Source: Pseudobdellovibrionaceae bacterium (lineage in GTDB: Bacteria; Bdellovibrionota; Bdellovibrionia; Bdellovibrionales; Bdellovibrionaceae). From it: DNA of 37,477 nt. The notes beneath the pieces were generated by a model. That model had not been told where the DNA came from and did no database searches. It saw only the letters and a program-made list of their open reading frames with translations. The stretch covers positions 1-37,477 of the forward strand of contig JAHBUW010000023.1 in NCBI GenBank assembly GCA_019637875.1, read 5' to 3'. Shown in pieces: positions 5,533-25,261 of the stretch; positions within the stretch are counted from its first letter, which is position 1, and each line of letters starts with the position of its first letter. The position numbers and the translations under genes were made by a program.

Positions 5533-5573
5533 AGTCGAGTCCTCCTTCATTGCGGATCCATTCACGCTCTCCG

Positions 5574-5602
5574 ATTTTGTCCGCGCGTCGTTCGGAAGTC
5601 AA
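5574..5602 (-). promoter_or_regulatory. Promoter for the secreted protein-nagZ operon
   Basis: Read on the minus strand: TTGACT (complement of 5597-5602), 17-base spacer, CAAAAT (complement of 5574-5579). This is close to the sigma-70 consensus and gives a transcript start near 5567, about 35 bases before the ATG at 5532 with its ribosome-binding site in between. Confidence 0.6.
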
Positions 5603-5651
5603 AGGCGCGAGCTTGTCCGTCCGGCGAAATGGGTTCACACTATTACGACTG

Positions 5652-7865
5652 GTGGAAAAGAAATTCTGGTCTTTGCGTAAGACCTTCGAGCAACGCGGTG
5701 GAAGTTGTGGCCAAAAAGGTCAGATCGCCATTTTTGTCGCGCTGATTTTTCAAGTGTTGTTCGTCTTTTTCGCGATGGTCGTGAACGTCGGACTGATCGT
5801 GCACCATAAAATCAATCTACAGAACTCGGTGGACCTTGCGGCTTACTACGGGGCGATGAAACAAGCCGAAGTCATGAATGCCGTTGCGCACGTCAACTAC
5901 CAGTTGCGCCAAGCGTACAAATTGCTGATCTGGCGTTATCGCCACCTCGGGATGGCGGGGGAAACTTATTCGCATCCTTATGACTCTTTGACGAGTTCAC
6001 TGCGCGGAACGGCGGGGGTGGATCAAGAGTTCAAAGGGCCTGATGGTGCGAAGTGTTCGGCGCGTTTCTGCGTCAACTATCCGGTGTTCAACATTCAAGA
6101 GCCGAACGAATACTACTGCCGGGACATTTGCCGCGAGGTGAAGATCACTTTGCTGGGGGTACCGAGCGTCTCCGGGATCAATTTCGCGCTGGCGGAAGGA
6201 ATGCTCGGGGGACTGGCCCGCAGTATCGAAGAAGCGTCGAAGGCCTTGGTCGACAAGACAAAGAAGCACTGCGAGGAGCGCTCGGCGCTGAACTGGTTCG
6301 CATTGGCCCGCTTTATCGTGTCGTACAAACAAGAGCAGCAAGCGCGCAAGGCGATCTTGAACCATTTGGCGAACTCGATCAGCTACAATACGGGCGATCT
6401 ACAGGACATCGACGGTGAGTCCGTACGCAAGGGTGTCCTGACGACGCTCTATCGCAATTTGTCTTACCCGAACCAAGAGCAGATCGATCCCGAATCGGGC
6501 GGCAAGAGCGGCGGGACGTTCAAGTTCTACAACTCGTTGGGCGATCCCAACTGCAGCGGAATCCAGGGCGAGAAGCGGATTCCGCCGAAGTGGTTGAACG
6601 AAGTTTTCTTGAAACCGCTTTATATTTCGTTGCAGGGTCTTTGTAGCGGCGCGACCTCGATCGGTTACAAACCGACGCCGATGAATACGGGGGACGGAAA
6701 TTATTCGGGTCCGGCCTACTCGACGGGTCTTGATCCCCAGGCGGTGCAAACGCTGATCACGATGATGGCGGACCCCGGTGATTTGGGAACGCCGGTGAAT
6801 CGCAGCTGGCATACCACTTTGGGTGTCGAGAAGAATCCTTGGTGTATGGCCTACGTCGCGGTGGAAGCGGCGACTTCACCCAAGGTTCCCTTCAATCCCT
6901 TCGGCCCCGTGAAGCTCAAGGCGCGTTCGTTCGCCAAACCCTTCGGCGGCTCGATCGGACCTTGGTATTACAACAAATGGCCGCAAGGAAGTAAGTCTTC
7001 GCTGGGCGGTCTTCCGGATCGCGTGGATCCGACTTTGCCGCCGCGGGTGACGACCGGCGAGACGCCCCCGGGTTTCGACGAGTACGCGTCCCAACCGGAT
7101 TTTTCGCGTTACACGGGCGACAAAATCGGAAACAAGTCGACGATGACGATGGGCCACGTCGCCAAAGCGTTGTGGGATAAACACCGCCCGCCGAGTCAGG
7201 CCGCTTGGGACATCTGGAGTCACCTTCCCGCGACGGGCAGTGGACTTTTGGGGCCGGATAACACGGGCGACACGCTCGCCTGGTCACCCAGCGGCTCGAC
7301 GCCCACGATGCGTGATCTTGAGTTGGGCTTCATTTTGCCGGATCAGTTCGACGTGACTTACTATTCGATCGAGCCGGACTTCTGGCGGAACTACGCTTTG
7401 AAATTGGCGAAGCGGCCGGATCTCAGCGGCGTGCACATTCGCGGCGATCTCGGTTATCGTCGTGGAGCGGGCGCGCCTTGGGATACGATGTCGATCAAAA
7501 GTCAGATCGAGCGCGGGCGTCAGCAGAACCTATACAACTTCAATTCGCCGCTGACCTATTACATCGGTGCCGAGAAACCACCGGCCGAGGCGTTCGTCGA
7601 AGCTTTGACCGGATGGCATATGATCGCGCCGGGGGATTACAAACTTCAGGCGAATCGTTTCGGAAATTGTCCGAACAACATGATCATTCCTTACGACACG
7701 ACCCGCTCGGAAATTGCGGTTCCCGGGAACTGTATGGGGGGCGGCCGCACCGGTTACTCGGTCAAACTCGTCGATGGCGAGTATCTGCAATCGCCGAATC
7801 TCGAGATCGGCGGTCAGGGACAGACGGGTCGTCTGTTGAATCCCTGGCAGGAAACCGAAGACTGA
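5652..7865 (+). CDS. TadG-like pilus-assembly protein (large)
   Basis: The N-terminus has the TadE/TadG plan: a short positively charged leader, GQIAIF, one long membrane helix (about residues 24-48), then a region beginning with HHKINLQNSVDLAAYYGA, the post-helix motif of these proteins. About 690 residues of presumably periplasmic or surface domain follow, with several Cys pairs (for example CSARFC, CRDIC, NCPNN, GNCMGG) and no recognised enzyme motif. TadG-type proteins are minor pilin-like components of Flp/Tad pili. The start is uncertain: GTG 5652 leaves the usual short leader, while the frame stays open back to a TTG at 5550. No ribosome-binding site precedes either; a TATTAC hexamer at 5641-5646 may be a -10 box for a leaderless transcript. 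Two secreted Cys-containing proteins follow on the same strand. Confidence 0.8.
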   Translation: MEKKFWSLRKTFEQRGGSCGQKGQIAIFVALIFQVLFVFFAMVVNVGLIVHHKINLQNSVDLAAYYGAMKQAEVMNAVAHVNYQLRQAYKLLIWRYRHLGMAGETYSHPYDSLTSSLRGTAGVDQEFKGPDGAKCSARFCVNYPVFNIQEPNEYYCRDICREVKITLLGVPSVSGINFALAEGMLGGLARSIEEASKALVDKTKKHCEERSALNWFALARFIVSYKQEQQARKAILNHLANSISYNTGDLQDIDGESVRKGVLTTLYRNLSYPNQEQIDPESGGKSGGTFKFYNSLGDPNCSGIQGEKRIPPKWLNEVFLKPLYISLQGLCSGATSIGYKPTPMNTGDGNYSGPAYSTGLDPQAVQTLITMMADPGDLGTPVNRSWHTTLGVEKNPWCMAYVAVEAATSPKVPFNPFGPVKLKARSFAKPFGGSIGPWYYNKWPQGSKSSLGGLPDRVDPTLPPRVTTGETPPGFDEYASQPDFSRYTGDKIGNKSTMTMGHVAKALWDKHRPPSQAAWDIWSHLPATGSGLLGPDNTGDTLAWSPSGSTPTMRDLELGFILPDQFDVTYYSIEPDFWRNYALKLAKRPDLSGVHIRGDLGYRRGAGAPWDTMSIKSQIERGRQQNLYNFNSPLTYYIGAEKPPAEAFVEALTGWHMIAPGDYKLQANRFGNCPNNMIIPYDTTRSEIAVPGNCMGGGRTGYSVKLVDGEYLQSPNLEIGGQGQTGRLLNPWQETED

Positions 7866-7893
7866 TGCCGAAAGCGGCTTAAAGTTCAACACA

Positions 7894-7934
7894 CGTCTCA
7901 ATCTTCGACAGGTCGGACGTCTCACCACGAGACG
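7894..7934 (+). promoter_or_regulatory. Repeated CGTCTCA and inverted repeat upstream of 7985
   Basis: CGTCTCA occurs at 7894-7900 and again at 7918-7924. The second copy forms a perfect inverted repeat, CGTCTC-ACCAC-GAGACG (7918-7934). TCTCAA-type sites and TCTC-N5-GAGA palindromes recur at 25262-25330 and 36431-36443, also upstream of genes for exported or small unknown proteins. This may be an operator for an unidentified regulator. Confidence 0.3.
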
Positions 7935-7984
7935 GTGACGAAATTTGACTCCGCTATTCCCTTTGAAAGACCGATACTTAAAGC

Positions 7985-9301
7985 ATGGGGAAAATCATGG
8001 TCTCGTGTCTCAAACCCGCCATCGCCGCGTTCATCTCCGTGAACTTCGCGTTCATGCCGTCGGTGTTTGCGGAAAGTGCCGAGCCGAATCTCGGTGGGCC
8101 GACGAGCACGAAGTCGTGGGTTCCCGAAGCGTGTGACCCTGAGAGTTTCAAAGGTCAACTGGATCAAACCGATCCCAAAAAAGCGGAACACGAAAAAGCG
8201 GTCCAGGCTTGTCACGACGAAGTGAAGAAGTCGGATACCGCGTGCCAGCCGGGATCGAATCCGAACGCGCAGCAAGCGCAGAACCAAGCGAATCAGTACA
8301 CCCAAAACACGAACCAAGCGGCGCAACAGACCTCGGGTTCGGGCAGCGGCCAGTCGAACAATTGCGGTGGCTTCGGTGACCTGATGAAAAACATGCAGCC
8401 GCCGATTCAGCAGTATCAAGGCGATTGCAACGGCGCGAAGAGCGTTTGCCAATCGACTTGCGCGAAGAAAGCGGAAGAGTCCAAGAAGGCCTGCGCGACC
8501 ATCACCGGAACGGATCCGAAATCGAAAAAAGAAAAGGCCGCATGTGAACGTAACGCGCAGGGTGTGAAGGCCTGCACCAAAAAGACGACCGCCGCGTGCG
8601 AAAAGTACTCGCAGCAAGTGGCGGCGATCGCGGCGGCTTTGATGAACGGATTGTTGCAGATGATGCAGATGCAGCAGTGTCAGCAAGATCAGGGACTGGA
8701 TTGCACGAAGGATCCCACGAATCCCCAGTGTATGAAGGACGATTCGGTGAACTGTTCGCAGCCCGAGCATTACGCGAATCCGCAGTGTATCTGTCAGGTG
8801 AATCCCAATGCGGGCGGCTGTCCCGGCGCGGATTCTTCGAAGGTGGGGCAAATGCCCGGTCGCGATCCTTATTCGAACGATACCACTTCCGATTCAACCT
8901 CGACGCCGACTCCCGGAACTGATGCGGGTCTTGATGGCAATCGCCGCAAGAACGCGGGCACGGGACCCGGTGGCGGCGGATCGGGATTCGGTGGTGGCGG
9001 CGGTGGCGCTGGCGGAGCCCGCGGCGCGGAAGCCGCTGCGGCCGGTGCCGGACAAAAACCCGCAAACCCTGACGTGTTGGCCGGCGATTACGGCGGAGGC
9101 GGCGGTGGACGTGGCGGCATGGGTGGCGGATATCCCGAAGTCACCGATAGCGGCATGGGCCGCGCTTTGAAGAACGCAGACCTACGCAAAACCGCGGCGG
9201 CCGGCGGCGCGCTCACGGGCGCGAACGGTCGCAGCAACTGGCAGAAAGTTCGCGAGCGTTATCGCGACAATCGCCCGTCTTTGATGGAACAAGGCAAGTA
9301 A
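7985..9301 (+). CDS. Secreted Cys-rich, Gly-rich protein
   Basis: A 438-residue protein starting with a signal peptide (hydrophobic about residues 7-27, ending SVFA). The mature N-terminal half is rich in Gln, Asn and Lys and has about two dozen cysteines, including SVCQSTCAKK, KKACATITG, AACERN and AACEKY, which suggests disulfide-linked helices. A helical MMQMQQCQQ segment follows, then a Cys-rich patch (about 235-282). The C-terminal third is a flexible Gly/Ala tract with runs such as GGGGSGFGGGGGG, ending in a basic segment. I recognise no family. ATG 7985 is given; a second ATG four codons on has GGGGA before it and could be the real start. It sits 119 bases after the TadG-like gene and next to another exported protein, so it may be a structural or adhesive part of the same surface apparatus. 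Confidence 0.75.
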   Translation: MGKIMVSCLKPAIAAFISVNFAFMPSVFAESAEPNLGGPTSTKSWVPEACDPESFKGQLDQTDPKKAEHEKAVQACHDEVKKSDTACQPGSNPNAQQAQNQANQYTQNTNQAAQQTSGSGSGQSNNCGGFGDLMKNMQPPIQQYQGDCNGAKSVCQSTCAKKAEESKKACATITGTDPKSKKEKAACERNAQGVKACTKKTTAACEKYSQQVAAIAAALMNGLLQMMQMQQCQQDQGLDCTKDPTNPQCMKDDSVNCSQPEHYANPQCICQVNPNAGGCPGADSSKVGQMPGRDPYSNDTTSDSTSTPTPGTDAGLDGNRRKNAGTGPGGGGSGFGGGGGGAGGARGAEAAAAGAGQKPANPDVLAGDYGGGGGGRGGMGGGYPEVTDSGMGRALKNADLRKTAAAGGALTGANGRSNWQKVRERYRDNRPSLMEQGK

Positions 9302-9316
9302 TTGAAGGAGGCCCCT

Positions 9317-10288
9317 GTGAAGTCCATGACCTCGGCTCTATTGTCGATCGCGGTTTCGCTTTCGCTGATCTTTCCGGCGCACGTTTTCGCGGACAACGGA
9401 TTGATCCAAGGCCAAGAAGGGAACGTCCCGGCCACGGGTACCAATTCGAACAGCGGACTTGGCGGTTCTTCGTATTCTCCGACGACCTTTAATCAGCCGA
9501 CGCCCACTCGGACATCGGGGATCGAGAACAACGGGAAAGACGGCTCCGAAAAGCAGGGCAACGGATCGCAAATGGCGATGATCACCATGATCGCGATGGC
9601 GGCGGTCGCCGCCGCGACTTGCCCCGCCTGCACGAAGAAGGGGACTTGCGGTATCTGCGCGGCCTCCATCATGGGCGGTCTGGCGGCGGGTTTGGCCGGT
9701 TCAAAAATGGATAAAGCTCAGGGTCTTTCGAACTCGCAAGTGACCGACGTCAATCCGACGGCCCCGGTGACGGGCGGCGAAACTCCGACCGCGACCGAGA
9801 ATAAACCCGAATATCTCGCGGCGATGAAGAGCCTGAAGACTTCGGCGAAAAATATCGGCGCCAACGTGAGTAAAGACGGGACTAAGATGACGACCGCGGC
9901 CGGTGAAGTCCTCGACGTGACGAAGCCGAACAGCGCGAGCAACTACAGCCCTACTCCCAGTGAGTCCGCAATGGTGAACGCGGCGCTCGCGAAAGCGAAA
10001 GAGGATATGGGGAAAGGCGCGGATGGCGCGGCCTCGGTCGCGGCGGAAGGCGATGGAACCGAAGGCGGCGGCGGTGGCGTGAGCGATGGACCGCGTACGG
10101 CGCTTGCCGATGAAGGAATCGGCGCGGGTTCGGGTGCCGCCAGTGGACGTCGGCCGGCGTCGGTTGCGGGAATGTCACGCGATTTCAACGGTGACCGTAT
10201 CGGCGTGGCGCAGGACTCATTGTTCGAAATGTTGCACCGTCGTTACCAGATGCATAACAACAATAATTCGTTCATCCCTTCGAAGTGA
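9317..10288 (+). CDS. Secreted Gly/Ala-rich protein with CxxC pair
   Basis: The start is GTG 9317, chosen because GGAGG (9307-9311) lies 5 bases upstream; an earlier TTG at 9302 overlaps that site. The 323-residue product has a signal peptide (about residues 1-23, ending AHVFA). Around residues 75-125 there is a hydrophobic Met/Ala-rich helix (ITMIAMAAVAAAT), then CPACTKKGTCGIC, then a second Gly/Ala hydrophobic stretch (about 111-122), so part of it may insert in a membrane. The rest is low-complexity Gly/Ala/Ser/Thr. The family is not recognised. It follows the preceding secreted gene by only 15 bases and is surely co-transcribed with it. Its 3' end overlaps the opposing murU gene by 17 bases. 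Confidence 0.75.
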   Translation: MKSMTSALLSIAVSLSLIFPAHVFADNGLIQGQEGNVPATGTNSNSGLGGSSYSPTTFNQPTPTRTSGIENNGKDGSEKQGNGSQMAMITMIAMAAVAAATCPACTKKGTCGICAASIMGGLAAGLAGSKMDKAQGLSNSQVTDVNPTAPVTGGETPTATENKPEYLAAMKSLKTSAKNIGANVSKDGTKMTTAAGEVLDVTKPNSASNYSPTPSESAMVNAALAKAKEDMGKGADGAASVAAEGDGTEGGGGGVSDGPRTALADEGIGAGSGAASGRRPASVAGMSRDFNGDRIGVAQDSLFEMLHRRYQMHNNNNSFIPSK

Positions 10289-11138
10289 TCCACAGCCGCT
10301 CGATGCGGCGGCGAAGATCGGGCTCTTCGGTTTCGAGTAGAAACCGGGGCTCGGGAAAACGAGACAGGAATTGAAGAAGATCCCGCATGGCGGGATCTTC
10401 TTTTTTTTGTTCGACGAGATCCAGAACCTCGCGCGTCGACTGAAGGAAAAGATCCGTGCGCCCGGTTTCAAACCAGTCCGCGGTATGGTCGTGGACGGCG
10501 ACGTCTTCTCCGGCCGCCATTCCACGGGTGAGCGTTTCGTAGAGGATATTTTCCTCGCGTACGGGAAACTCGAAGTATCTTTCGACCCGACGATTCATGA
10601 AGAGGTAGCCGACGTAGTGGTGACCGGTGAGTCCGGTGACCGGCGTCTTCGAGAACTGACGGACGATTCCGTTGGCTTCGGCCCAGGCGCCGCCGAGGGA
10701 GCGGCCCACTTCCGGATGGGACATGGTCACGAGGGTCGCCAAGCGATCCCGCTTCGTGTGCTCCGCAAGGGCTTGCCGCAAGACATCCGACCGCTGCGGC
10801 AGGTAAACTTCGTCACCATTGAGCAGCAGAATTTGTTCGGTGGTGATGTCGCGAATGACATTCGCGACGGCGCCCCCGCTGCCGAGGATTTTCGCCGTTT
10901 CATCGACGAACTCGGGCATGGGCAAGTTCAACATCGACGTGTCCATCGCTCGCAAACTCTCCGGCGCATGATGTAAATTCATGTAGAGCCGACGGACCGA
11001 GAGTTCCTCAAGGTGCCGCAGCGAGTGCAGCCCCAGCGGAACGCCGAGGAAGGGGATCGCGGGTTTGGCGAGCTTTTCGGTGTAGGGGCGCAGCCGCGTT
11101 CCCAAACCGGCGGTGAGGGCGAACGCGGTGAGGCTCAT
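10272..11138 (-). CDS. murU: N-acetylmuramate-1-phosphate uridylyltransferase MurU
   Basis: A sugar-nucleotidyltransferase (Rossmann-like GT-A fold): AGLGTRLRPYT (10-20) and KLAKPAIPFLG (22-32) form the nucleotide-binding signature, with ILGSGGAVANV (84-94) and LLLNGDEVY (104-112) supplying the substrate and metal-binding loops. Sequence alone cannot separate MurU from mannose- or glucose-1-phosphate nucleotidyltransferases. However, the gene is coupled by an ATGA overlap (11135-11138) to an AmgK-type kinase, the known partner of MurU in Pseudomonas. MurU makes UDP-MurNAc from MurNAc-1-phosphate and UTP. At 288 residues it is longer than the roughly 220-residue Pseudomonas enzyme; the extra C-terminal segment (about 235-288) is helical and charged. 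That segment is encoded over an intrinsic terminator belonging to the opposite strand. Confidence 0.8.
   Translation of the reverse strand: MSLTAFALTAGLGTRLRPYTEKLAKPAIPFLGVPLGLHSLRHLEELSVRRLYMNLHHAPESLRAMDTSMLNLPMPEFVDETAKILGSGGAVANVIRDITTEQILLLNGDEVYLPQRSDVLRQALAEHTKRDRLATLVTMSHPEVGRSLGGAWAEANGIVRQFSKTPVTGLTGHHYVGYLFMNRRVERYFEFPVREENILYETLTRGMAAGEDVAVHDHTADWFETGRTDLFLQSTREVLDLVEQKKEDPAMRDLLQFLSRFPEPRFLLETEEPDLRRRIERLWITSKG
10374..10408 (+). terminator. Strong terminator of the rightward operon, inside murU
   Basis: A perfect 13-bp stem (AAGAAGATCCCGC / GCGGGATCTTCTT) with loop ATG is followed by T residues up to 10408. It lies 86 bases beyond the stop of the secreted-protein gene at 10288. 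It is oriented for the plus strand; on the minus strand no T run follows it, so murU transcription should pass. Confidence 0.85.
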
Positions 11139-12145
11139 TCGTATTTTCTTTCCAGGAGTCCCGAGTCCAGAAGGAATCCGGAAAATTCACGGTATTCCGG
11201 AAAGCTGTAAAGGGCTTTCATCACGCGTTTGAGTGTCGGTTGGATGTGCTTCAGGTACCGCGTGTCCTGACGCGCGTTCCAGAAACTCGAGAAGCTACCG
11301 CAGGCCTTGAAGCAACGTTGAACCGTTTGCAGCTCATACATGAGCTGGAAGTGCTCAAGCGACATGGGCTTCGTGAAGTTCTTTTTGGCTTCGTCATAGA
11401 AGGTATGCAGCAAGAGGTCGGCGTCAGCATCCGCTAGCGTCACGTAAGAATCCCGCAGCAAGCTGACAAGGTCATATTGCAAAGGGCCGCCGCGCGCGTC
11501 TTGGAAGTCGATGACCCGAACTTCGTCGAACTTAATCATCAGGTTGCGCGAGTGATAGTCGCGATGGGTGATCCATTTCGGCTCTTGGTGCAGGCGCTCC
11601 GAGATGTCGCGGAAGGTTTTCTGTAGAAGGGTGTCTTGCGCGGGCGTGAGTTTGATCTGACCCATTTTTTCGATCAAGTGTTCGCGGGTATAGTTGAATT
11701 CCCACATGAACTTTTCGGTATCGAATTGCAGGCGGTGGGCCGTGGAAGACACTTTCGACTTCAGGGTGGCGAAATGGATCTTCAACAATTCATCGAGCGC
11801 TTTTTCGTAGAACGGTTTCGCGGGCTCGAAAGTTTGGTTTTCCCAGAACTTGCGTTCGAGCGTGAGGTCACCCAAATCTTCCAGCAAAATCAGGCCACCG
11901 GTTTCCGAGACGCCGACGACTTCCGGAACGGTGACGCCCGCGTCTTTGAACAATGTGTGTACGGAAAGGAAAGGGTACTCGGCCGCTTTGAAGGGTTCCC
12001 AGCTCATGAGGACCCAGGTTTTTTCTTCGGCGTCGGCGACGCGATAGTAGCGGCGGGCCGAAGCGTCGCCCGCAAGCGGGATCAGCCGGAAATTTTGGGT
12101 CTTGATCGAATCGGCGACAAATGACTTCAGGGCGCTCTCATCCAT
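11135..12145 (-). CDS. amgK: N-acetylmuramate/N-acetylglucosamine kinase AmgK
   Basis: A 336-residue phosphotransferase of the aminoglycoside-phosphotransferase/choline-kinase fold. Motifs match Pseudomonas AmgK closely: LAGDASARRYYRV (24-36) in the nucleotide-binding lobe, THRDYHSRNLM (193-203) with the catalytic Asp196, and VIDFQDARGGPLQYDLVSLL (211-230), the metal-binding segment. AmgK phosphorylates MurNAc (and GlcNAc) at the anomeric hydroxyl with ATP; MurU then forms UDP-MurNAc. Together they bypass de novo MurA/MurB synthesis and the fosfomycin-sensitive step. The length agrees with known AmgK. The downstream murU overlaps it by 4 bases. No good ribosome-binding site precedes ATG 12145, and the gap to the upstream gene is only 37 bases, so it may depend on upstream transcription. 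Confidence 0.9.
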   Translation of the reverse strand: MDESALKSFVADSIKTQNFRLIPLAGDASARRYYRVADAEEKTWVLMSWEPFKAAEYPFLSVHTLFKDAGVTVPEVVGVSETGGLILLEDLGDLTLERKFWENQTFEPAKPFYEKALDELLKIHFATLKSKVSSTAHRLQFDTEKFMWEFNYTREHLIEKMGQIKLTPAQDTLLQKTFRDISERLHQEPKWITHRDYHSRNLMIKFDEVRVIDFQDARGGPLQYDLVSLLRDSYVTLADADADLLLHTFYDEAKKNFTKPMSLEHFQLMYELQTVQRCFKACGSFSSFWNARQDTRYLKHIQPTLKRVMKALYSFPEYREFSGFLLDSGLLERKYE

Positions 12146-12182: not shown

Positions 12183-13007
12183 TTAGTGCGAGTTCTGGCC
12201 GCCCTGCAAGCAAAGCTCGAGCGCCTGCTTGAGGTTGGTTTCGTCCTGGGGCCAACGGTCCAAAGACAAATTGTAGCGCTCCAGCTCGCCCATGATCTCA
12301 TGGGGATAAGCTTGGCAAGATTCCAGCTCGGCCAGAGTCCGGGTCGAACCGATCACGATGACCGGATGTTGTTCGGAATCGGCAGTCCGCATGAATTCTT
12401 TCAGGATCACGATCTCTTCCGGCGATAAATGCAACAGATCCTCGACGAAGATCGTCGCTTTGCCGAGGGCTTGCAGCTCGCGAACCGAACCGAAGCTCTT
12501 CATGTCCGAGAAACGCAACATGGCCCAACGCTCGGTCGTCTCGTGCAAATGAATGGCGACGCGGTTGATGCGATTGGGATTCAAGGAGTGAAGCAGGATC
12601 GCTTTCGGCTGCACGTCTTCCAGGAAGGACGGACGGCCGCCGTCCAGCAGTTGAATTTTTCCGGGTTGGATCTGTTCGGACTCCCCGGTGACGGTGGCTG
12701 ACACCGGTTGTCCATCGAGGTACCGGCGATACAGCGCGGGCTCCAGAATCAAACGGACCACTTCCGTGATCGCGTCGATGGAGGTCGCGGGGAGATCCTG
12801 AACAGAGGGAACGCGAGCGAGACCCAAGAAGGTGCCGTGCATCTGGATCGGAATCAAAAGGTCACCGCGCGAGACGGTGGCGTTGTCGCCACTTCTCGAC
12901 ATCATGGAATCCACCAACAGGCGGACTTCCAACCCCTTGCCATAGCGATGTTTCAACAACCCCGTGAGTCTTTGAACCGAAGCCATCTTCAGGATGTCCG
13001 TATTCAT
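12183..13007 (-). CDS. Degenerate sigma-54-activator-like protein without Walker A or HTH
   Basis: A 274-residue protein that reads as a decayed relative of sigma-54 activators. The first 100 residues resemble a small sensor domain (LLIPIQMHGTFLGL, 50-63). From residue 135 the order of an AAA+ core can be followed: KAILLHSLNPNRINRVAIH (135-153) stands where GESGTGKE and the following AxxIH normally occur, but the GxxGxGK residues are gone. TIFVED (185-190) matches Walker B, VIVIGSTR (216-223) matches sensor I, and ERYNLSLDRWPQD (243-255) follows the usual YRLNV...PPLRER stretch. There is no GAFTGA loop and no C-terminal helix-turn-helix. It therefore should not hydrolyse ATP or bind DNA by itself. 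It could be a regulatory partner of the full activator encoded 0.9 kb upstream. The start has GGAG about 11 bases before ATG 13007. Confidence 0.75.
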   Translation of the reverse strand: MNTDILKMASVQRLTGLLKHRYGKGLEVRLLVDSMMSRSGDNATVSRGDLLIPIQMHGTFLGLARVPSVQDLPATSIDAITEVVRLILEPALYRRYLDGQPVSATVTGESEQIQPGKIQLLDGGRPSFLEDVQPKAILLHSLNPNRINRVAIHLHETTERWAMLRFSDMKSFGSVRELQALGKATIFVEDLLHLSPEEIVILKEFMRTADSEQHPVIVIGSTRTLAELESCQAYPHEIMGELERYNLSLDRWPQDETNLKQALELCLQGGQNSH

Positions 13008-13196
13008 TTACTCTTGCTCCCCGTAGTACGTTCAACTCCCCCACGGAGCTGAACGGGAAAGCACATAGGCAATCGCTGTGCCGAGTTTTGTCACCCGGCG
13101 CCTGGCGGTTTAATGCGTTCTCGCGGGAAAAACCCGCGTTCGCGCGAGTTTAGCGGCTTCGGCGCCACGCTGAGCTTTTGGTCGATAGGGAAGGAA

Positions 13197-13895
13197 TTAC
13201 TGAGATTCCGAGGCCGGCTGGCGAGGGAACTGAATCTTGGGCTGTCCTTTGTCGAACCGGTACTCCCACCGGGTTCGTTGAGCATTGGGGTCAGTTTGCA
13301 GCTGCTTCGAAAGCCGAATGCTGACTTCATCCATATGACCAGACGGAAACGCAATTTTCGAGGTTGTGGTGACGAGCTCTATGGATTGATCTTCCAAATA
13401 TTCAATGCGCTCTATGTCTTGGACCAAGAAGACAGGGGACCTTAGCTTTCGCTTCTCACCGTAAGCGACAAATTCGCACTGAAAGAGGGTCGATGACGGT
13501 TTGCGAACGCAGTCTGCAGTCACCGTCGCGTACGTGGATTCGACGAATCGGATATACGCAAATACTCCTCCGTACCCAGTCAGAACGGCGAAGATCAAAG
13601 TGGCAGCCAGTCTCTGTCGAAATTTCGTGGACGCGTTGAGCCCCTCAGGAGCCACCCAGCGCCGAGGAAAATAGCGATAAGTCATAAAAACGGAGAGGCC
13701 TACTAAACACAAGTACGCTCCGTAAGCCTTAAAATACTCAGTCCATGATTCATCTTGCATGAACTCTTCGGGATCAATTCCAATCAGCAGGAACAGGGCC
13801 AAAGCGGTGCCTACGGCTGAGATCATCAACCTGAAAAATGGGAGCGCGTCTTCCGGATCTGGGAGGTTCGAAGTGGATTCCATGTCCCCTCTCAT
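13197..13895 (-). CDS. Small membrane protein of unknown function
   Basis: Up to 232 residues with three predicted membrane segments (about 20-40, 59-73 and 95-114) followed by a soluble C-terminal domain of about 110 residues containing two Cys. I recognise no family. The start is unclear: ATG 13895 abuts the T-run of the upstream terminator and its only ribosome-binding site would lie inside the terminator hairpin, whereas the in-frame ATG at 13883 has a purine run (GAGGGG) too close for normal spacing. Base composition looks slightly lower in GC than its neighbours, and the gene sits alone between a terminator and a 189-base gap. That suggests, weakly, a later insertion between two related regulators. 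Confidence 0.65.
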   Translation of the reverse strand: MRGDMESTSNLPDPEDALPFFRLMISAVGTALALFLLIGIDPEEFMQDESWTEYFKAYGAYLCLVGLSVFMTYRYFPRRWVAPEGLNASTKFRQRLAATLIFAVLTGYGGVFAYIRFVESTYATVTADCVRKPSSTLFQCEFVAYGEKRKLRSPVFLVQDIERIEYLEDQSIELVTTTSKIAFPSGHMDEVSIRLSKQLQTDPNAQRTRWEYRFDKGQPKIQFPRQPASESQ

Positions 13896-13945: not shown

Positions 13946-15508
13946 TTACGAAGAGCGAGCCATACGGCGTTTATCCAAACCGTACTTTTCGACTTTCATG
14001 ATCAGACCCGCGCGCGAGATGCCGAGTTCCTTCGCCAGCTTGGACTTGTTCCAGCCCGTGCGGCGCAGACCTTCTTTGATCATGTCGCGTTCGAGTTCTT
14101 CCAGAGCGTCCTTCAGTTTACCCTGCAGACGGGCACCTTGGACTTTCGACTTTTCGCCGGCTTCCAGAATTTTGGGCGACAGCATCTCGGGCAGGATTTT
14201 AGTTTCCTCTCCCGCCAAGACGACCAGACGCTCCATTTCGTTTTGCAATTCACGAACGTTACCCGGGAAAGCGTAGTCATACAGCTTTTCCAGTGCACGT
14301 TTCGTCAGAACACGTTTGCTGCCACCGTTGTTCTCGCTCGCTTTCTGCAGGAAAGCTTCGGCGAGAAGAGGGATGTCCTCTTTACGCTCGCGGAGCGGGG
14401 GCACGCGGATGTTGATGACGTTCAAGCGATAGTACAAGTCTTCACGGAATGTACCTTGCTCAACCATCTCCTTCAGGTTGCGGTTTGTTGCCGCAACGAT
14501 CCGGACGTCAACTTTGCGCATCTCGGTCGAACCGACGGGCGTGAAGGTGCCTTCTTGCAACACGCGCAGCAGTTTAACCTGCATCGTGGGCGAAGTGTCC
14601 CCGATTTCATCGAGGAAGAAAGTTCCTTTGTCCGCGATTTCGAACAGACCTTTTTTATCTTTGATCGCGCCGGTGAACGAGCCCTTCACGTGACCGAACA
14701 GTTCCGACTCCAAGAGGTTGTCGTTGAACGCCGAGCAGTTCTGGATCACGAACGGACGATCTTTACGGTGCGAGTTGTAGTGGATCGCTTTCGCGATCAA
14801 TTCTTTACCGGTACCGTTCTCACCCTGGATCAGGACCGTCGTGTCTGCGCCTTTGATCTTATCGAGCAGGGCGTAGAGCGATTGCATGGGCTTCGACTTA
14901 CCGATCATGTTGTCGTACTTGTAACGCGAACCGAGTTCTTTGTTCAGTTCACGAATACGATCTTCGCGACGAGTGATCTCGAGGTGAAGAGTCACAACTT
15001 CTTCCGCAACCAGTTGGACCAGTTCGCAGAAGTGAGTGCGATCGTCGTCATCGAGGTAGCGCAGTTTACCGAGCGCTTGCTCGATGGAATCGCCCGACTG
15101 ACCGAAAGCGGCCAAACGGTCACGAACTTCACCCATACGCTGGGGGTTCGCTTGGTCGCGGAAGAATCCGGTCGCAACCACGGTTCCCATGAAGTCGTTT
15201 TCGATAGTGATGGGGAAGATACCGACATCGTATCCCGCCAGGTCCCACTTTTTCAGTGCGAAGCGGTTGTCCGACATACGAAGATCTTCGATCGTTTTCA
15301 TCACGAACTCAGCCATGTTCTGTTGGGCGACGTCTTTGCCCATCAGTGCGCCCGTTGCGGGGTTGGCCCAGTTTGCTTTTGCGGCGTCGAAGCCTTTGAT
15401 CAGGCCGCGTTCGTCCGTAAACACAACGTCGACATTCCACCAAGAAGACAGAATGTGGCGGAGTTTTTTGATGACGTGAATATGTTCAAACTCATCCCAA
15501 TTGATCAT
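13946..15508 (-). CDS. Sigma-54-dependent transcriptional activator, PocR-like sensor domain
   Basis: The start is ATG 15508, with GGAGG (complement of 15515-15519) 6 bases upstream; the frame stays open to 15556 but lacks such support. The 520-residue protein has a sensor domain (about 5-170; GYDVGIFPITIENDFMG at 92-108 resembles PocR-like ligand domains), a short helical linker, and an AAA+ sigma-54 domain: Walker A GENGTGKE (229-236), GSFTGA (276-281) in the sigma-54 contact loop, Walker B TFFLDEI (296-302), sensor I RIVAATNR (336-343) and LREREKD-like PLRERKEDIP (371-380). The C-terminus is a Fis-type helix-turn-helix (NKSKLAKELGISRAGL). It should activate sigma-54 promoters in response to an unknown ligand. 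GSFTGA in place of GAFTGA is a small oddity. The ligand and targets are not evident here. Confidence 0.93.
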   Translation of the reverse strand: MINWDEFEHIHVIKKLRHILSSWWNVDVVFTDERGLIKGFDAAKANWANPATGALMGKDVAQQNMAEFVMKTIEDLRMSDNRFALKKWDLAGYDVGIFPITIENDFMGTVVATGFFRDQANPQRMGEVRDRLAAFGQSGDSIEQALGKLRYLDDDDRTHFCELVQLVAEEVVTLHLEITRREDRIRELNKELGSRYKYDNMIGKSKPMQSLYALLDKIKGADTTVLIQGENGTGKELIAKAIHYNSHRKDRPFVIQNCSAFNDNLLESELFGHVKGSFTGAIKDKKGLFEIADKGTFFLDEIGDTSPTMQVKLLRVLQEGTFTPVGSTEMRKVDVRIVAATNRNLKEMVEQGTFREDLYYRLNVINIRVPPLRERKEDIPLLAEAFLQKASENNGGSKRVLTKRALEKLYDYAFPGNVRELQNEMERLVVLAGEETKILPEMLSPKILEAGEKSKVQGARLQGKLKDALEELERDMIKEGLRRTGWNKSKLAKELGISRAGLIMKVEKYGLDKRRMARSS

Positions 15509-23184: not shown

Positions 23185-25164
23185 TTAGTCTCGGCCGTCG
23201 TCATCATCCGAATCGCCGGTCAGGTCGTTGTCGTAGTAGTCTTTCAACGAAGCGTCTTCCACGATCTTCTGCAGGCGCTTGACCTCATCCGAGCAGGCCA
23301 CGTCGCTTTCCATCGCCTTGACCGAATTCACGAAGTTGCGGAACTGCGAAGCCGCTTCGGTGGGTTGCTTCAGGCCCTTCGGCTTGTTACCCAGATCGCG
23401 AATGTCCGCGATCGATTCGTTCATCCGCTGCTGCGCTTGCTGGATGTTTTGGTTCGCCGCCATTTCGGACTGTTGTGCATTCGATTGCAGTTCCTGCATT
23501 TGCATCTGCACCGATTGCATCTTTTGGTACAGCTCGTTGTTCGCTTGCTGCATCGACTGCTGCGCACGTTGGATGGCGGTCGATTTGTTCTGCTCGATCT
23601 GGTTTTTCTGTTCATCCAGGGCGGCGATACGACGGTTGTTTTCGGCGACGCTGTTGTCCACGGCGTCGATTTCGGCTTTGAAAGACTTGTACGTCGAAGC
23701 GCGTGCGGCTTCGTAACGTGCGTAGCAAAGCTCTTTGATGCTCATCAGGCGGCGCTTACGTTCGGCGTAGCTTTGCATATAGTTTTGCGAACCCGACACC
23801 ATTCCGGCCTTCATTTCGGAAATCGCCTTTTCGAGTTCGACCATACAGTTCGTGTGGATCATCGCATCCGACAGACCCGCGAGTTCGACCGCGCGCTGAC
23901 CGGTAATCTGCGCGGACCGGCTGCGCGCTTCGATATTCGCCGCGCGGAGTTCGGCCTTCTGCTGATCGATTTCCATCATCTGTTGCTGAGCCTGCATGCC
24001 CTCTTCGGCCAGGGCTTTTTGCTGCTCGTCCATGTCTTTACGCATGTCCGCCTGCATTTTGACGAACTCTTGCGACAGCTCTTTTTTCTTCTCGGCCAGC
24101 TCTTTTTTATCTTTCGCGAGGTCTTTCTGCAGATCGGCCATTTCTTTCTGGGCGTCACGCAGTGAGCGACTGCGCTCGCGTTTTTCGCTTTCGTAGTCCT
24201 TCAGGCCGTAAACCGAGCACTTCTTGATGCGTTCGTTTTGATTCTTGAAGGTCTGGTTGTTGCCCAGGCCGATCGAACGCCAGAAGTCGTTGTCGAATTC
24301 GCCTTTCGACGAAGTGTCTTCGTCGGTACTCGCGGTGACGCAGGCTTTCGCTTCGTCCATGCAAGCCTTCACACCCGCGATGCCCGCGTCGGCGCACGCC
24401 TGACTGAACTTGTTGTAAGCTTCGCGCGCTTCTTTTTCTTTCTTGCCGCAAACGTTCATTTCCGAGTTGTTCCAAGCGGACGCGCACTCGGGCATGTCTT
24501 TGTTGTTTTTGTTTTTCATGGGCTCGCCGCCGCACGAATCATAGAGGATCGGATCTTTGAGGTAAGCCGCGGTCGGCTTACACGCGTAAGTCGTATTGTG
24601 ACCGGTGATCTGACCGTTCGTCGGATTCACAATGTTCGTCGTCGTGGGCTCGGCTTCGTGGCCGGGTTTACACGTGGGACGTCCGTTCGGATCTTGAGTC
24701 ACGCCCGGGCCGGGCTGCAAAGTGAAGCGTTGCAAAGTGCCGGTCGATGCCGGGGCCGTGAAGATGGACGTCGTGCCGGTCGTGGTGACGGCGGCAGGGG
24801 CCGTCGCGGACCGGGTAACGGGTTTGCCATCAGCGCCCAGGACGGGTTTTCCGTCCGCGCCGATCACGATCGTTTGTACGCGGCGGGGTTCCGTCGTGGT
24901 GCCGGTCGGAGCGGTCACGGTGTCGTTGCGAACTTGACGGTAAGAGCGGGTTCCCGGGCTCGATTGGGCGACCGAGCGGACGGTGGTGCGTGCCGTGGGC
25001 GCGGGCCTCGCGACAGTTGAAACACGGCGTGTGCTTTCCGCGGAATCGTTGCGGATACTTCGTGCCCTATAGTTAGGGTTGGAAGCGAAAGCTTCGAAAG
25101 ACAGCGCAGTCATCAGTAGACCGGTGACCATGCCCGTGGTCAGTTGCATTGCCTTGTGTTTCAT
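23185..25164 (-). CDS. Large secreted coiled-coil protein with Cys pairs
   Basis: The start is ATG 25164, with GGAGG (complement of 25170-25174) 5 bases upstream; the frame runs back to 25191 without support. The 659-residue product has a signal peptide (about residues 5-27, ending FEAFA), then a Thr/Ala/Pro-rich disordered region (about 28-165) with a short GADGKPV repeat. A Cys-containing part follows (about 165-300; CKPGHEA, SCGGEP, NVCGKK, KACMDEAKAC). Beyond that is a long helical coiled coil (about 320-600) rich in Lys, Glu, Gln and Met. The C-terminus ends in an acidic Asp run. No family is recognised. Its Cys spacing and composition recall the secreted protein at 7985. A structural or fibre-like role is a guess. 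Confidence 0.75.
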   Translation of the reverse strand: MKHKAMQLTTGMVTGLLMTALSFEAFASNPNYRARSIRNDSAESTRRVSTVARPAPTARTTVRSVAQSSPGTRSYRQVRNDTVTAPTGTTTEPRRVQTIVIGADGKPVLGADGKPVTRSATAPAAVTTTGTTSIFTAPASTGTLQRFTLQPGPGVTQDPNGRPTCKPGHEAEPTTTNIVNPTNGQITGHNTTYACKPTAAYLKDPILYDSCGGEPMKNKNNKDMPECASAWNNSEMNVCGKKEKEAREAYNKFSQACADAGIAGVKACMDEAKACVTASTDEDTSSKGEFDNDFWRSIGLGNNQTFKNQNERIKKCSVYGLKDYESEKRERSRSLRDAQKEMADLQKDLAKDKKELAEKKKELSQEFVKMQADMRKDMDEQQKALAEEGMQAQQQMMEIDQQKAELRAANIEARSRSAQITGQRAVELAGLSDAMIHTNCMVELEKAISEMKAGMVSGSQNYMQSYAERKRRLMSIKELCYARYEAARASTYKSFKAEIDAVDNSVAENNRRIAALDEQKNQIEQNKSTAIQRAQQSMQQANNELYQKMQSVQMQMQELQSNAQQSEMAANQNIQQAQQRMNESIADIRDLGNKPKGLKQPTEAASQFRNFVNSVKAMESDVACSDEVKRLQKIVEDASLKDYYDNDLTGDSDDDDGRD

Positions 25165-25261
25165 AAGTTCCTCCAAAGCGCCTTCACTCATCGAAATTCG
25201 GTGACGCTTTTGTTGTCTACCAACTCATGGAGCAAATCAGGTGCCCAAAAACGTCGCAAGC

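Follow-up and report, generated by a model that had tools for sequence, protein, structure and literature searches.

A putative catalytically dead relative of the sigma-54 activators, predicted to be under sigma-54 control and conserved across the class Bdellovibrionia

What can a relative of the sigma-54 activators still do once it appears to have lost the parts with which such proteins use ATP, contact sigma-54 and bind DNA? This question is raised by a 274-residue protein, here called FAM, encoded in a Pseudobdellovibrionaceae bacterium (assembly GCA_019637875.1, contig JAHBUW010000023.1); the window is the whole analysed stretch of 37,477 nucleotides, to which coordinates refer unless another locus is named. 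A sequence-only reading of the window had described FAM as a relative of the enhancer-binding proteins (EBPs) lacking Walker A, the GAFTGA loop and a DNA-binding domain. Our tentative answer, given a probability of roughly 0.45, is that FAM is a trans-regulator without catalytic activity whose circuit logic resembles that of FleT, and that it most likely feeds back on the full activator encoded next to it. The gene and its predicted parts are as follows.

12183 to 13007, minus strand: FAM, a GAF-like domain plus a degenerate sigma-54-type AAA+ core, 274 aa (open reading frame (ORF), class-wide orthologues, AlphaFold2 (AF2) model)
12693 to 13007, minus strand: N-terminal GAF-like domain, residues 1-105 (AF2 of the domain alone; GAF matches at Z 8-9)
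12561 to 12593, minus strand: slot of the lost Walker A, residues 139-149, LHSLNPNRINR (alignment with GENGTGKE of the neighbouring activator)
12249 to 12617, minus strand: degenerate AAA+ core without lid, residues 131-253 (VIA-align Z 11-13; PF14532 in 16 of 29 orthologues)

The reading frame, which starts in the ORF list with an ATG at 13007 on the minus strand, belongs to a gene under strong purifying selection. A profile search found homologues in 121 of the 144 genomes of the class, and a plain protein search found a match in 41 of 60 relatives (34 of 50 if good assemblies alone are counted), almost always in a single place; beyond the class there were weak matches alone, mostly within larger proteins, which were not counted as members. 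Orthologues are about 20-37% identical to the window protein. Over the whole gene, dN/dS was 0.014-0.080 in five pairs, so FAM is not a decaying pseudogene, and its class-wide conservation indicates that the frame is not due to chance. A search of the literature available to the analysis found no paper on the gene in Bdellovibrio. Genome G139 holds two copies (L150:2217-3170 and L151:2328-3299), and behind each copy lies a kinase gene of the same family.

By its modelled fold, FAM is an EBP relative. The AF2 model of FAM, a single-chain prediction like all those used here, was built from 29 orthologues and has a mean pLDDT of 82. Foldseek placed DmpR, ZraR and 3n70 at the top of the matches to its AAA+ core, and VIA-align gave for the C-terminal domain Z values of 12.9 for 4bs1 (an entry titled MuB, whose chain B matches an NtrC-family regulator), 12.0 for 3n70, 12.0 for DmpR, 11.8 for VpsR and 11.4-11.6 for FleQ, with other AAA+ proteins (RuvB, clamp loaders, p97) close behind at Z 10-11. 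By these models the C-terminal domain is a structural relative of the sigma-54 AAA+ family with EBPs as its best matches (Z 11-13), and no unrelated fold scored better, which agrees with the earlier assignment. The sole Pfam match of the window protein is a sub-threshold one to PF14532 Sigma54_activ_2 (E 0.075), a domain that was matched by 16 of the 29 orthologues at a best E of 8.7e-8; the PDB sequences yielded no significant match to either the window protein or the family profile. The N-terminal domain, predicted alone with a pLDDT of 79, gives Z values of 8-9 with GAF domains across some 90-100 residues (7.6 with the NifA GAF), a moderate margin given the usual Z background of 7-8. No Pfam GAF match was obtained for the window protein, and the domain is best described from its model as GAF-like.

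The clearest indication of descent comes from genome G040, in which the slot before the kinase is occupied by an orthologue of 414 aa (L110:6326-7570) with Pfam matches to the PF14532 Sigma54_activ_2 core (1.4e-11), AAA_lid_14 (6.1e-8) and HTH_8 (2.4e-6). This protein is already without Walker A and GAFTGA. Because it keeps the lid and the helix-turn-helix (HTH) in collinear order while lacking these two motifs, it marks FAM as the descendant of a full GAF-AAA+-HTH EBP. The G040 protein aligns to the window's full activator, c2, at 8e-23, and in five of five genomes its best EBP score was to that activator (73-82 bits, against at most 58 for others), a preference that may partly reflect slow evolution of the activator. 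A tree with an approximately unbiased (AU) test left it unplaced: grouping with the neighbouring activator had a p-AU of 0.32, and other placements were also not rejected. In two families, f2 and f11, the FAM slot holds a protein of about 134-143 aa that consists of the GAF-like part only. Together with the G040 protein, these forms would make up a stepwise series showing the dismantling of an activator. In f11, an M48 metallopeptidase gene was observed between the GAF-only gene and the kinase (L102:3358-4200, L103:3429-4271).

A set of proteins at L095-L100 was considered as a second FAM paralogue and rejected, as they form a different, small EBP-like family that is GAFTGA-less and keeps the lid and HTH. 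Its members (L095:6890-7753, L096:6079-6924, L097:6117-6962, L099:6453-7313, L100:6196-7119) are about 281-307 aa long, in several relatives adjoin a tetratricopeptide repeat protein of about 930 aa, and have a P-loop in at least L095.

The motif losses claimed by the sequence-only reading were borne out across the family. A P-loop was found in none of 85 orthologues (0/85), nor in the window protein, where residues 139-149 stand at its position. In the alignment with the full activator, the segment from the IHxxSxR-like helix to the Walker-B strand has no GAFTGA loop, and the arginine-finger region shows no conserved arginine in the family alignment. Pfam found neither lid nor HTH in the window protein, and among the 85 orthologues both are kept only in L110. 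The claim that Walker B was kept holds for the window protein, which has an E-D pair, but not for the family, in which the first position is P in 33% and E in 30% and the second D in 48%, N in 23% and E in 22%; the acids thus appear variable and partly kept. The helix after the lost P-loop is retained, reading IHxxSxR in many members (A151 94%, H155 88%, R160 64%), and L194 is conserved at 89%. Judged by its sequence, FAM would be unable to use ATP, contact sigma-54 or bind DNA.

How is such a protein expressed, and beside what? The usual gene order is PBP1A, UvrA, an MsbA-like ABC transporter, the activator, FAM, an AmgK-like kinase and a MurU-like nucleotidylyltransferase, and in the window the relevant elements are these.

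13068 to 13083, minus strand: predicted sigma-54 -24/-12 promoter sequence, CGGCACAGCGATTGCC, 61-76 bp upstream of the FAM ATG and conserved in orthologous loci
13946 to 15508, minus strand: c2, full NifA-like EBP with Walker A, GSFTGA, Walker B, lid and Fis-type HTH (PF00158 2.5e-71, PF25601, PF02954), its start set at a conserved Met, the longest ORF extending to 15556
11135 to 12145, minus strand: APH-fold kinase, AmgK-like, 37 bp downstream of FAM (NF045759 AmgK 3.1e-42, below the curated cut-off)
10272 to 11138, minus strand: sugar nucleotidylyltransferase, MurU-like or mannose-1-P guanylyltransferase-like (PF00483 2e-12)

The -24/-12 element was found upstream of FAM in 63 of 84 orthologous loci, GAF-only versions and the G040 intermediate included, against 0.69 expected, and in a smaller set it preceded the gene at 23 of 33 loci, compared with 3 of 330 other genes; the loci of close relatives are non-independent, and these counts overstate the number of independent events. 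It persists where the remaining gap sequence has diverged, and 14 of the 15 genomes checked carry an rpoN gene. An intrinsic terminator follows the activator, often within tens of bases, in 28 of 50 gaps against 0.65 expected, and FAM is therefore assigned to a transcription unit separate from that of the activator. FAM is thus the predicted first gene of a sigma-54-dependent operon with the AmgK-like and MurU-like genes, and the conserved promoter sequence, as a predicted element, is new here. A second sigma-54-like element, GGGCACCTGATTTGCTC, lies at 25230-25246 (minus strand), about 54 bp upstream of a 668-aa ORF (23185-25191).

The full activator lies 938 bp upstream of FAM on the same strand. 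Its family was found in 120 of the 144 class genomes, single-copy, with orthologues across the class 68-85% identical to the window copy; its best NCBIfam score is to NifA, below the cut-off. The pairing seen in the window is conserved across the class. The earlier suggestion of a full activator nearby with a similar sensor was right as to the activator, but homology of the sensors was not established: hhalign of the FAM family against the neighbouring activator gave a weak match (probability 3.8%), with little diversity in the activator alignment. In the window genome a 232-aa ORF (13197-13895, minus strand) without a Pfam or NCBIfam match lies between activator and FAM; it looks like an insertion into the conserved gene order, with no homologue there in other loci.

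On the downstream side, the nucleotidylyltransferase gene overlaps the kinase gene by 4 bases, and its product also matches NF052502 (3.4e-18) and NF045761 MurU (6e-12), both below cut-off; AmgK-like and MurU-like are accordingly likenesses rather than assignments. FAM and the kinase are typically spaced by about 35 bp and stay together where the activator is several kb off or on another contig, so that FAM is linked more tightly to the kinase than to the activator. A Tad/Flp-pilus-like gene group (5550-10288, plus strand; PF13400 in 5550-7865) faces the operon and is conserved there in many relatives.

These data suggest a feedback circuit. The neighbouring activator c2 would drive the FAM promoter, and FAM, once made, would act in trans on c2. 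A ligand may be reported through the GAF-like domain, and the degenerate AAA+ core could serve as a docking or subunit-mixing surface. The sign of the action would be negative feedback: a partner that its sequence marks as dead would most simply tune the activator negatively or conditionally. The likeness of the circuit to FleQ/FleT may serve as a precedent for this kind of regulation. In a more specific form, improbable as a whole, FAM would be a class-wide pseudo-ATPase antagonist: its GAF-like domain would detect a sugar of the cell wall, and the protein would hold the activator back by contacting its subunits directly. Several observations weigh against feedback on c2. No shared enhancer was found upstream of the promoter (dyads and 7-mers gave nothing above shuffles), and the link from activator to promoter is consequently drawn from adjacency. 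With the G040 intermediate unplaced in the tree, FAM may or may not stem from a duplication of that particular activator. The GAF-only forms of f2 and f11 imply that the AAA+ core is dispensable in some lineages, and in several genomes (e.g., G017, G057, G116 and G040), some of them fragmented assemblies, FAM is with the kinase and the activator is elsewhere.

What else could FAM be? Given the tighter kinase linkage and the GAF-only forms, a role as enzyme partner is a serious rival, if a less probable one: FAM would regulate or scaffold the downstream AmgK-like and MurU-like enzymes, with the EBP remnant as a ligand-sensing partner. The roughly 35-bp spacing that survives the distancing of the activator and the GAF-only forms in the same slot before the kinase are both readily understood in this way, whereas the M48 peptidase gene that separates the two genes in f11 is not, and the EBP ancestry and adjacent activator favour a transcriptional role. 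As a special case of feedback on the activator, the dead core might enter the activator ring and poison the hexamer, whose ATP sites would then lack a Walker A and an arginine finger. The retained core fold with its conserved A151, H155 and L194 is compatible with this, as is the mixing of HTH-less FleT with FleQ and of the HrpR/HrpS and VnfA paralogues; yet FAM has no lid domain, GAF-only versions exist, several genomes hold FAM with the kinase away from the activator, and the activator is nearly invariant beside orthologues of FAM that are about 20-37% identical, with no sign of interface co-evolution. We consider this version doubtful. By far the least probable explanation is that the C-terminal domain has an unrelated or generic AAA+-like fold whose likeness to sigma-54 activators is coincidental. 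The poor Pfam score of the window protein, the weak profile comparison with the activator and the scores of RuvB, clamp loaders and p97 would be expected from it, but it is largely refuted by the G040 orthologue, whose lid and Fis-type HTH, arranged collinearly, clearly identify it as an EBP.

Feedback on the neighbouring activator, if correct, would be of some general interest. The literature consulted hardly documents an EBP that is controlled by a catalytically dead relative, and a class-wide, promoter-linked case in predatory bacteria makes the question of whether a dead AAA+ EBP tunes a live one directly testable. The same case suggests that a sigma-54 circuit governs a putative pair of amino-sugar kinase and nucleotidylyltransferase, which is relevant to the predators' possible reuse of cell-wall sugars.

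Which known systems does FAM resemble? The nearest is FleT of Rhodobacter (Cereibacter) sphaeroides, described as a sigma-54 activator protein. This HTH-less EBP is expressed under FleQ and RpoN2 and forms hetero-oligomers with FleQ (PMC11999139), which makes the earlier statement that no described regulator is built this way too strong. Like FAM, FleT is an EBP relative without a DNA-binding domain. The fleT gene shares an operon with others of its system, and its expression needs a full EBP, FleQ, and a sigma-54 (PMC11999139; PMC7277832), a dependence that FAM would share. Unlike FleT, FAM has a GAF-like sensor and is without Walker A, GAFTGA, arginine fingers and lid. NifA/VnfA-type EBPs (GAF-AAA+-HTH) resemble FAM in having a GAF-like domain at the N terminus, ahead of an AAA+ core, whereas FAM is without their ATPase, sigma-54 contact and DNA-binding parts. 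An EBP architecture in which the sigma-54 contact loop is broken is also seen in TyrR, DhaR, HupR and VpsR, the last among the nearest folds to FAM, and regulation by TyrR, DhaR and HupR is reported to depend on sigma-70 (PMC3162934). The DNA-binding domain is gone from FAM except in G040. TyrR, DhaR and HupR keep theirs. A partner protein acting in trans on an EBP, as proposed here for FAM, has a parallel in Pseudomonas syringae, although HrpR and HrpS, unlike FAM, are both EBPs with HTH domains and have no sensor domain. HrpV is a separate negative regulator and is not known to be an EBP relative. In that system, control in trans by a partner protein is combined with mixed subunits (PMC4145663), and mixed EBP oligomers have been reported for both HrpR/HrpS and VnfA proteins (PMC9542535).
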